Origin: Serpentinicella alkaliphila
GTDB lineage: Bacteria > Bacillota > Clostridia > Peptostreptococcales > Natronincolaceae
NCBI RefSeq assembly: GCF_018141405.1
Contig: NZ_CP058648.1
Coordinates: 573,001 to 637,000 of the forward strand
Length of the DNA: 64,000 nucleotides
Reading direction: 5' to 3'
How positions within the stretch are numbered: the first letter of the stretch is position 1; each line of letters starts with the position of its first letter. The position numbers were made by a program, and so were the translations under genes. Positions 2,893 through 7,786 of the stretch are shown in pieces. Under the pieces are notes generated by a model. The model was not told where the DNA came from. It made no database searches and saw nothing but the letters and a program-made list of their open reading frames with translations.

Positions 2893-2925
2893 GTAAAAAA
2901 AGACAGCTAAGAGTAACTTAGCTGC
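2893..2925 (-). terminator. Intrinsic terminator between pbuG and purK
   Basis: A perfect 8-bp stem (CAGCTAAG / CTTAGCTG, 2904-2911 with 2917-2924) with a 5-base loop is followed on the minus strand by seven T. It starts 9 bp after the pbuG stop codon. No convincing promoter fits in the roughly 40 bp left before purK. Confidence 0.8.
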
Positions 2926-2933
2926 TCTATAAC

Positions 2934-4259
2934 TTAACGAGGTAAAAATGCTAATTTTGCGATGAACAGTAAAGCCAATACATAGACTGCTGGATGAACA
3001 TCTTTTGATTTTCCTGCCGCTAATTTAGTGATAGGGTAGAAAATTAATCCAGCTCCAATACCATTTGCAATACTGAATGAAAACGGCATAATTGCTATTG
3101 TAAAGAATGCAGGTACTGCTTCTTCAAAATCTTCGAAGTTAATATTTTTAATTGTACTCATCATTAAAACCCCAACAATGATTAATGCTGGTGCTGTCGC
3201 TTCTCCTGGAACCATTAGGGCAAATGGTGCAATAAAGATTGCAAGAATAAACATAATACCAGTTGTTACTGCTGTTAAACCAGTTCTTCCACCTTCTGCT
3301 ACCCCTGCTGCTGACTCAACATAAGTTGTAACAGTTGATGTTCCAAGTAATGCCCCTGCAGAAGTTGCAACTGCGTCTGCCAATAATGCTTTATTCATGT
3401 TTGGCAGTTTACCTTTTTCATCAAGCATTCCTGCTTTAGCTCCAGTTCCAATTAAAGTTCCAATTGTATCGAACATATCTACTAATGCGAAAGAGATAAC
3501 TACTGTTGAAATACTTAGTAATACAGGTCCAAATCCACCTTGCATTCCCATTAAATCTCTGAATCCAGGATTGAAGGCTTTAAATAAAGTGTCTCCAATA
3601 TTTAATGAAAAACTTGTCATTGTTGTATCTGTAACTCCCATAGGAATTCCAATTAATGTTGTAGCAATGATTCCGAATAATAATCCGCCTCTTATATTTT
3701 TAGCCATTAAAAATGCTGTAATTATTAAACCAATAACCGCTAATAAAACAGGTGCTTCTAAGAAGTTTCCAAAAGTTACAAGAGTTGCTCCACTTGGTAC
3801 AACAATTCCTGCATTTTTGAATCCGATAAGTGCTATAAATAATCCAATACCTGCTGCAATCGCATGCTTTAAAGAATTTGGTATAGCTTCAACAATTAAC
3901 TCTCTAACTCCAGTTACTGTTAGAAAAATAAAAAATAAACCAGAAATAAATACCGCTGCTAAAGCTGCTTCCCAAGAGTAACCTAAACCAAATACAACAC
4001 TATACGTAAAGAAAGCATTTAATCCCATACCAGGTGCCTGAGCAAATGGAAGGTTAGCATAAAGTCCCATAATTAAAGTACCAATTGCTGCTGATAAACA
4101 AGTTGCCATAAATACTGCATTAAAGTTCATACCAGTTTCAGATAACATTAGTGGGTTAACAATTAGAATGTAAGCCATTGTTACAAACGTTGTGATCCCT
4201 GCAATAACTTCAGTTTTTACAGTTGTGTTGTGCTCTTTTAGCTTGAAAAATTCATTCAT
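2934..4259 (-). CDS. pbuG: Guanine/hypoxanthine permease, NCS2 AzgA-like family
   Basis: A 441-residue multi-membrane-segment transporter taking up guanine and hypoxanthine. The N-terminal block EVIAGITTFVTMAYILIVNP, then QAPGMGLNAFF, and later GTSTVTTYVESAAGVAEGGRTGL are hallmarks of the AzgA/PbuG branch of NCS2 permeases. I place the start at the ATG at 4259 (MNEFFKLKEH), which has GGAGG 7 bp upstream. A longer open frame extends to 4511 but translates the riboswitch leader. The gene is directly downstream of a guanine aptamer, a PRPP-type aptamer and a regulated terminator, which fits a purine salvage function. The purKECSQ genes follow. Confidence 0.94.
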   Translation of the reverse strand: MNEFFKLKEHNTTVKTEVIAGITTFVTMAYILIVNPLMLSETGMNFNAVFMATCLSAAIGTLIMGLYANLPFAQAPGMGLNAFFTYSVVFGLGYSWEAALAAVFISGLFFIFLTVTGVRELIVEAIPNSLKHAIAAGIGLFIALIGFKNAGIVVPSGATLVTFGNFLEAPVLLAVIGLIITAFLMAKNIRGGLLFGIIATTLIGIPMGVTDTTMTSFSLNIGDTLFKAFNPGFRDLMGMQGGFGPVLLSISTVVISFALVDMFDTIGTLIGTGAKAGMLDEKGKLPNMNKALLADAVATSAGALLGTSTVTTYVESAAGVAEGGRTGLTAVTTGIMFILAIFIAPFALMVPGEATAPALIIVGVLMMSTIKNINFEDFEEAVPAFFTIAIMPFSFSIANGIGAGLIFYPITKLAAGKSKDVHPAVYVLALLFIAKLAFLPR

Positions 4260-4359
4260 TGATGTAGCCTCCTTTTTTTTATAACCCCATTGAGTTTTTT
4301 GAAAAGTCAACTCATAGCTGAATAACAATCCCAATTGTATATATAATACCCGATTTACA

Positions 4360-4418
4360 AAAAAATAAAGCTCGGATGGATAGGTTATTTTATAAGTGAA
4401 ACCTATCCGCCCGGGCTT
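4360..4418 (-). terminator. Regulated intrinsic terminator of the pbuG leader
   Basis: GGATAGGTT (4400-4408) pairs with AACCTATCC (4378-4386). The stem can extend through GCCCGGG and ATCCGAGC, and is followed on the minus strand by TTTATTTTTTT. The 5-prime arm overlaps the 3-prime strand of the PRPP-type aptamer, so aptamer and terminator are mutually exclusive. Confidence 0.85.
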
Positions 4419-4511
4419 TTGTCCCTTCGGTGTGACATCAACGATGATCAACGATGCCTGTATCGCTCGGACCAGCTTCAAAAATGAACGGAACCCTAGA
4501 TACACTTTCAC
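4396..4511 (-). promoter_or_regulatory. PRPP riboswitch (ykkC subtype 2b)
   Basis: The minus strand carries the ykkC-family conserved segments in order: GTGAAAGTGTATCTAGGGTT, then CTGGTCCGAGCGATACAGGC, then ACACCGAAGGGACAAAAGCC followed by CGGG. GTGAAA (4506-4511) pairs with TTTCAC (4396-4401) to close the element. The same core fold serves guanidine-I, ppGpp and PRPP riboswitches. The PRPP assignment rests on purine context and on the adjoining guanine aptamer, an arrangement known from other Firmicutes. Closing the aptamer sequesters the 5-prime arm of the terminator, which predicts activation by PRPP. Confidence 0.85.
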
Positions 4512-4578
4512 TCATAGAAGAATGATTTACGGTCATCCTGTAGAGACTGTCGAACCTTATTTTCGACATTATATGAGT
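4510..4578 (-). promoter_or_regulatory. Guanine riboswitch aptamer (purine riboswitch)
   Basis: P1 is ACTCATA (4572-4578) with TATGAGT (4510-4516). The J1/2 segment TATAATGTCG, the J2/3 segment AGTCTCTAC and the L3 loop CCGTAAA match the purine riboswitch consensus. The base just before the 3-prime P1 strand, equivalent to position 74 of xpt, is C, which specifies guanine and not adenine. It abuts the PRPP-type aptamer and shares its last two P1 bases with that aptamer's closing helix. Confidence 0.93.
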
Positions 4579-4606
4579 TTCTTTTCGATATTTAATTTAC
4601 AACTAT

Positions 4607-4635
4607 ATAATAACAAATGCTTTAAAAAAGGTCAA
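4607..4635 (-). promoter_or_regulatory. SigA-type promoter of the pbuG leader
   Basis: On the minus strand TTGACC (4630-4635) is followed after 17 bp by TATTAT (4607-4612), about 30 bp before the guanine aptamer. It is the only good match upstream of the riboswitches. Confidence 0.75.
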
Positions 4636-4714: not shown

Positions 4715-6247
4715 TTATTCCCACTCTACAGTTGCAGGTGGCTTTGAAGTAATATCGTATACAATCCTATTTACATTTTTTACTTCGTTAACTATTCTGT
4801 TTGAAATTTTCTCTAATACGGAATGAGGTATTCTAGCCCAGTCTGCGGTCATAGCATCTGTACTAGTGATTGCTCTAATGGCAATCGTATGAGCATAGGT
4901 TCTTTCGTCACCCATAACCCCTACACTCTGAATATTTGGAAGTACGGCAAAATATTGCCATATATCTCTATCTAATCCTGCATTTTTAATTTCTTCTCTA
5001 ACTACAGCATCTGCTTCTCTAACTATTTCTAGCTTATCATCAGTTAACTCTCCTAAAACACGAACAGCTAAACCAGGTCCTGGGAATGGTTGTCTCCAAA
5101 CCACTTCATCAGCTAGTCCAAGTTCAGTTCCAACAGCTCTAACTTCATCCTTGAATAATAATCTAAATGGCTCTATTAATTTAAAAGTCATATCCTCTGG
5201 TAAACCACCTACGTTATGATGACTTTTTATAACCGCTGCTGTATCAGTACCGCTCTCTATAACGTCTGAATAAAGAGTTCCTTGAACTAAGAAGTCATAC
5301 TGGCCTATTTTGCTCGCCTCTTCTTCAAATAAACGGATAAATTCTTCACCGATAATTTTTCTCTTTGTCTCTGGGTCACTTACTCCTGCCAATTTTCCTA
5401 AAAAACGCTCCTTAGCATTAACTCTTTTAAAATTCATTTTAAACTCGTTTTTGAATAGCTTTTCTACCTGGTCACCTTCACCTTTACGTAACATTCCATG
5501 ATCAACAAATATACAAGACAAATTGTCTCCAATTGCTCTATGAACAAGAACAGCCGCAACTGAGGAGTCTACACCCCCAGATAATGCACAAAGTACCTTT
5601 TTGTCACCAACAACATTTCTTATTTTCTCAATTTCTTCCTTGATGTAATTTTCAGTTGTCCAAGTTCCTTCGCACTGACAAATTCCAAATACGAAATTTT
5701 GTATAATTTCCCTTCCAAATTCTGTATGCTCAACCTCTGGGTGGAACTGTACCGCATATAATTTATTAGCCTCATCTTCCATTGTAGCTACTGGACAATC
5801 TAGTGTAGTAGCTGTTATTTCAAAGCCTTCTGGTGCTATTTCAATAAAGTCCGTATGACTCATCCAACACACTAATTCACTTGGTAGATTATTGAATAAT
5901 AAAGACTTACTGTTTAATTTTAATGCTGTTTTTCCATACTCTTTTTTATTTGCTCTATTAACATTTCCGCCTAATACTTGGGCCATTAATTGACCACCAT
6001 AGCAGATTCCTAAAATAGGTATACCCATTTTAAATATTTCAACTGGCACAGTAGGAGAATTCTCACTGTATACACTTGCAGGCCCACCACTAAAAATTAT
6101 TCCTTTAGGGTTTTTCTCTTTGATTTTCTCTAAGGGTGTTTTATATGAAACTACTTCACAGAAAACATTTTTTTCTCTAACTCTTCTAGCAATTAATTGA
6201 CTATATTGTCCACCAAAGTCAATTATCAAAATCATTTCATTTGTCAT
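4715..6247 (-). CDS. guaA: GMP synthase (glutamine-hydrolysing)
   Basis: A 510-residue two-domain enzyme that aminates XMP to GMP. The N-terminal class I amidotransferase has the nucleophile in GICYGGQ (Cys near residue 82) and the His/Glu pair in [10 protein letters not shown]. The ATP-pyrophosphatase domain has the P-loop [14 protein letters not shown]. The C-terminal dimerisation domain ends KPPATVEWE, as in the family. The length is standard. guaB lies 66 bp upstream on the same strand, with its own hairpin between, so the two may be partly coupled. GuaB makes XMP for this enzyme. Confidence 0.98.
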
Positions 6248-6279
6248 ATCGTTCTTCCCTTCTTTGTTTAATTAGTTAA

Positions 6280-6309
6280 ATATGGTAAAGCCGAGTATTT
6301 TACTCGGCT
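6280..6309 (-). terminator. Hairpin after guaB
   Basis: AGCCGAGTA (6301-6309, minus) pairs with TACTCGGCT (6289-6297) around a 3-base loop, directly after the guaB stop. The following T tract is short (TTACCATATTT), so it may be a weak terminator that lets guaA be read through. Confidence 0.6.
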
Positions 6310-6313
6310 GAAA

Positions 6314-7786
<1,473 letters not shown>

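Follow-up and report, generated by a model that had tools for sequence, protein, structure and literature searches.

The window, i.e. the 64,000 nucleotides (nt) of Serpentinicella alkaliphila DNA analyzed here (positions 573,001 to 637,000 of contig NZ_CP058648.1), contains on its minus strand, between guaA (ending at 4715) and pbuG (starting at 4259), a promoter-like sequence, a guanine aptamer, a ykkC-type aptamer directly behind it and one terminator, followed by pbuG. We consider it very probable that this region is a tandem riboswitch for guanine and phosphoribosyl pyrophosphate (PRPP) that works by strand exchange, in which the strand 4516-4510 would have two alternative partners of nearly equal sequence, one in helix P1 of the guanine aptamer and one in helix P0 of the PRPP aptamer. 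With the guanine aptamer immediately 5' of the PRPP aptamer and a single terminator overlapping the latter, the locus has the architecture of the tandem guanine-PRPP riboswitches, for which IMPLY logic and a shared terminator are established (PMC5912903), and it is an ordinary, real member of this known class. An earlier reading of the sequence alone (the original prediction) had described such tandems as already known, which the same source (Sherlock 2018) bears out; the mechanism it proposed is of the right kind, its outline had been published, and the reading understated how far it reaches.

The guanine aptamer spans 4510-4578 on the minus strand, from P1 to P1, and is matched at 4596-4495(-) by the Rfam purine model RF00167 with 86.0 bits (E 3.9e-16, above the curated cut-off). 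It has the conserved CUA core. C74 in purine aptamers indicates guanine rather than adenine as the ligand, and C4517, which we take to be its equivalent, reads as the guanine class. The second element is matched at 4510-4406(-) by the ykkC/Guanidine-I model RF00442 with 64.7 bits (cut-off 63, E 3.4e-11), which places it in the ykkC family; the aptamer, subtype 2b when its residues are mapped on the numbering of PMC6031431, spans 4398-4509(-) from GAAA to UUUC of the P0 core. By their E-values both aptamers are far beyond chance, and they abut, with a lone terminator, as originally described. The Rfam label of the second element would speak for a guanidine-I aptamer, and the alternative that it is such an aptamer or one for guanosine tetraphosphate (ppGpp), and not for PRPP, must be weighed; however, the label is Guanidine-I because RF00442 is the only ykkC model with a match. 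According to PMC6031431, guanidine-I aptamers have A at position 49 and subtype 2 a pyrimidine, and G at position 96 denotes PRPP, while another base or none denotes ppGpp. Mapped on that numbering, position 49 is C4465 and position 96 is G4411. C4465 stands at the equivalent of A46 in 5T83, where guanidine-I relatives such as L121-L126 read GUCCGAGAG (A at position 49 in six guanidine-I loci: L121, L122, L124-L126 and L146), and this excludes guanidine-I subtype 1, just as G4411 excludes ppGpp subtype 2a by the published rule. The purine operon context and the guanine aptamer as tandem partner also speak against both identities, which we regard as extremely unlikely. Among the tandem relatives, position 49 is C or U in 129/130 and position 96 is G in 124/130. 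With the GAAAG and AGGUUUC flanks closing P0, the second aptamer is of the PRPP class by every sequence criterion, and the original call of a PRPP-type element holds on bases 49 and 96, neither the ppGpp nor the guanidine class fitting better.

The two closing helices draw on the same strand. P1 of the guanine aptamer is formed by UAUGAGU (4516-4510) and its partner ACUCAUA (4578-4572). The P0 core joins GAAA (4509-4506) to UUUC (4401-4398); on a longer stretch GUGAAA (4511-4506) pairs with UUUCAC (4401-4396), and P0 runs on through A4512, G4513 (opposite U), U4514, A4515 and U4516 with 4395-4391, giving 11 base pairs (bp) in total. UAUGAGU can thereby pair unbroken, with one wobble, with the 3' strand of the P0 extension, ACUUAUA (4391-4397), which matches the 5' strand of P1 at 6 of 7 bases. 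As the P0 pairing is uninterrupted up to 4516, the entire 7-nt 3' strand of P1 is contested, a strand that is the 3' side of P1 or the upper 5' side of P0 according to sequence and constrained folding and that is conserved in 121 tandem loci. The original prediction had limited the sharing to two bases; 4511-4510 are indeed shared, but all seven P1 3' bases are shared here, and relatives typically share four to five. Likewise, it had the 5' arm of the terminator overlap the 3' strand of P0 by two bases. This overlap exists (4401-4400) but is not the limit, as the arm also takes up the 3' strand of P3 and PRPP-contacting bases: A101, A103, G104 and G105 of the published numbering are 4406, 4404, 4403 and 4402, all within the arm. 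The terminator itself, a single intrinsic one at 4359-4419(-) with a stem of 4419-4367 and a U tract to 4359, folds with -24.9 kcal/mol (z -6.0; 0/200 shuffles as good), its stem drawing on GCCCGGG of P3 plus GGAUAGGUU; the 3' strand of the P0 extension lies in its loop in the OFF state. miRNA-like Rfam matches over the terminator were below cut-off and were rejected as hairpin artefacts.

To compare loci we used at least 133 tandem loci from sequence-pattern searches of genomes, the tandem counts referring to the matches listed. The distance from CTA to GAAAG is 5 nt in 124/133 tandem loci and 3-6 nt in all of them; therefore the strands overlap at every tandem locus. Pairs of P0 and P1 were counted in the 121 tandem loci with standard spacing and in 64 singlet PRPP loci. 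P1 itself is paired in 91-100% of these tandem loci at each position. All four P0 pairs inside the P1 strand (s2-s5) are found in 100 of the 121 tandem but in only 6 of the 64 singlet loci, and the three inner pairs in 107/121 and 21/64, respectively (Fisher P 1e-14, which ignores kinship). The mean contiguous P0 extension is 4.0 for tandems and 1.4 for singlets. Thus the P0 extension goes with the tandem form, and this association supports strand exchange. In a minimal version of the competition only 4511-4510 would be contested and the P0 extension would be irrelevant; in its favour, two pairs added to GAAA suffice for a P0 of six pairs, and most singlets have a short P0. The s2-s5 pairing, so widely kept in tandems and much rarer in singlets, argues against this version, and we judge it improbable.

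A different explanation, raised in Sherlock 2018, is that antagonism arises only from a steric clash of the adjacent folded domains, the extra complementarity then being a by-product of sequence conservation. Indeed, adjacency of the aptamers is universal among the tandem loci, and when P0 3' strands are shuffled among these loci the extension still averages 3.2 bp, since the tandem sequences are alike. However, the observed mean exceeds all 2000 shuffles (kinship ignored), the extension is absent from most singlet PRPP loci, and in the window the 3' strand of P0 mimics the 5' strand of P1, so a purely steric antagonism is unlikely. Strand exchange also agrees with the pattern at s5, which pairs with both partners in 110/121 loci compared to a maximum of 101 in 5000 shuffles (again ignoring kinship); where s5 is C, it is accompanied by G on both sides in 17/17 cases.

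Folding was modelled without ligands or tertiary contacts, and the values are predictions of a model rather than measurements. For a transcript ending before the 3' arm of the terminator, the P0-extended fold comes to -50.1 kcal/mol and the fold with P1 to -48.8 kcal/mol; the two energies are nearly equal and thus the competing helices would be nearly balanced, as a ligand-set switch requires. P0 is predicted with a probability near 0.6 as long as the transcript ends within 4390-4381; once 4378 has been made, the terminator prevails.

Several observations weigh against strand exchange. For the ligand-free RNA at full length, the energy models, which leave out ligand and tertiary contacts, prefer the terminator outright. 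In 21/121 tandem loci one or two of the four extension pairs are missing, loci of the L010 type have G at s5, which pairs to neither side, and an extended P0 also occurs in some singlets and is thus not exclusive to tandems. Both the tandem and the singlet sets were gathered by sequence patterns, with a possible bias. After correction for the tree, covariation at s5 agrees in direction without reaching significance, with only 3 independent pairs on supported branches; dual selection is therefore suggested, not proven.

Under strand exchange, bound guanine would keep 4516-4510 in P1 with 4578-4572 so that P0 could not close. With P0 open, the PRPP aptamer would leave its 3' part (GCCCGGGCGGAUAGGUU) free to become the 5' arm of the terminator, turning expression off. 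Bound PRPP would close P0 (4516-4506 with 4401-4391) and open P1, and the closed aptamer would hold the ligand-contacting bases that double as the 5' arm of the terminator, turning expression on. With neither ligand, P0 could form ahead of the 3' arm of the terminator, allowing at least partial read-through, which would amount to the IMPLY behaviour measured in B. megaterium. pbuG would be controlled directly, and a second terminator may weaken control of the de novo purine operon that follows. The two aptamers, both pairings, the terminator, the gene order and the conservation of the dual pairing are seen in the sequences, while we infer that this RNA binds its ligands, which way it steers expression and what it does in vivo; sequence, folding and comparison all support the originally proposed competition of P1 and P0, in which guanine would favour termination and PRPP read-through. 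The proposal is not novel, since P1/P0 exclusivity has been published, and it gave the extent of the competition too small.

Upstream of the tandem, a sigma-70-like promoter candidate (TTGACC-17-TATTAT, 4607-4635, minus strand) was found by a consensus scan, with 10/12 positions and a TG extension, and is a consensus match only. The first gene is a pbuG-like nucleobase permease (2934-4259, minus strand; Pfam PF00860, E 4e-51). It is followed on the same strand by purK (1709-2854; NCBIfam TIGR01161), purE (1177-1698; TIGR01162), purC (433-1146; TIGR00081), purQ, purL, purF, purM, purN, purH and purD, those outside the window being named by sequence inspection of open reading frames (L263). In the gap between pbuG and purK lies an intrinsic terminator-like hairpin (2903-2925, minus strand; found by a scan, fold -13.5 kcal/mol, z -3.2), which also occurs in the relatives L004, L046, L129 and L141, and thus the pur genes may be read less than pbuG. 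The original prediction correctly named the importer pbuG, not a synthesis gene, as the first gene; it is only the first, and ten pur genes follow, albeit past this hairpin. Nor is pbuG in first place unusual: it is the commonest context, first in 67 of the 133 tandem loci listed. Other first genes are purE, long-form purL, purC and purK, and an xpt-like gene in Brevibacillus-type loci. In six tandems (L028, L238, L240, L241, L249 and L261) the gene that follows encodes, on inspection of its sequence, an xpt-like phosphoribosyltransferase, a PRPP-using salvage enzyme. Immediately upstream and likewise on the minus strand, but outside the riboswitch, are guaB-guaA (4715-7771), a placement that fits the published view that gating is restricted to the synthesis of inosine monophosphate. 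A search of the whole Serpentinicella alkaliphila genome gave no further ykkC element at E 0.001; it has two more guanine aptamers, one ahead of xpt and the other ahead of a gene for a BmpA-like lipoprotein, both genes being named by sequence inspection.

Some loci of the comparison deserve mention on their own. A single Tissierellia genome (L080) has two tandem guanine-PRPP riboswitches a kilobase apart (2067-2087 and 3053-3073), preceding purC and purL, with the P0 pair at s5 being U/A in one and C/G in the other. In singlets with an extended P0, a plain upstream hairpin often pairs with the same P0 strand (pairing >0.5 in 14/21; mean 0.63 vs 0.40 shuffled; loci L008, L016, L023, L045, L048, L056, L057, L078, L095, L097, L104, L113 and L115), as if it were a ligand-free stand-in for the guanine aptamer. 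In a genome of 1.6 megabases (L131, G010), the PRPP aptamer is preceded by a decayed-looking guanine aptamer, and the congener L134 retains its guanine aptamer.

Of the known systems, B. megaterium codA (PMC5912903) shares the aptamer order, the adjacency, the single terminator overlapping the PRPP aptamer and the link to purine metabolism. It differs in its gene, codA, where we find pbuG and then the pur operon; our comparison is by sequence. For codA, effects of the ligands have been shown, along with in-line probing changes in opposite directions at the 5' end of the PRPP aptamer (Sherlock 2018). The accessible running text of that paper makes no mention of pbuG or a permease. Mutual exclusion of guanine P1 and PRPP P0 was predicted for Thermoanaerobacter mathranii (Knappenberger 2018, PMC6031431); the prediction there concerns the secondary structure of a single RNA, and the accessible part of the paper describes neither the extent across loci nor a tandem-associated P0 extension. 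The ligand-contacting bases of the T. mathranii PRPP aptamer (structure 6CK5) are conserved here. In the family of Serpentinicella alkaliphila, tandem loci such as those of Alkaliphilus serpentinus (L029/L142) have the same tandem, spacing and purine-gene context; P0 extension length and PRPP aptamer hairpins vary. A total of 192 tandem examples has been counted, and a review of 2022 states that the precise structural changes and the structural basis of this natural RNA IMPLY gate are yet to be established (both PMC9481103).

Our analysis adds to this how far the shared strand reaches and how well it is conserved, that it goes with the tandem form, that this member shows sequence mimicry, and how often pbuG comes first. 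We see an even chance that strand exchange is a general device, i.e. that tandems of Firmicutes evolved a P0 extension competing base for base with the 5' strand of P1, that one strand is selected for two partners, that the balance of P1 and P0 extension lengths sets the logic, and that extended singlets swap the guanine aptamer for a plain hairpin occluding the same strand. Taken together, what was a single-sequence prediction is now a pattern over about 120 loci, with the exact bases named for mutation, and it suggests that a longer or shorter P0 extension can tune the gate.
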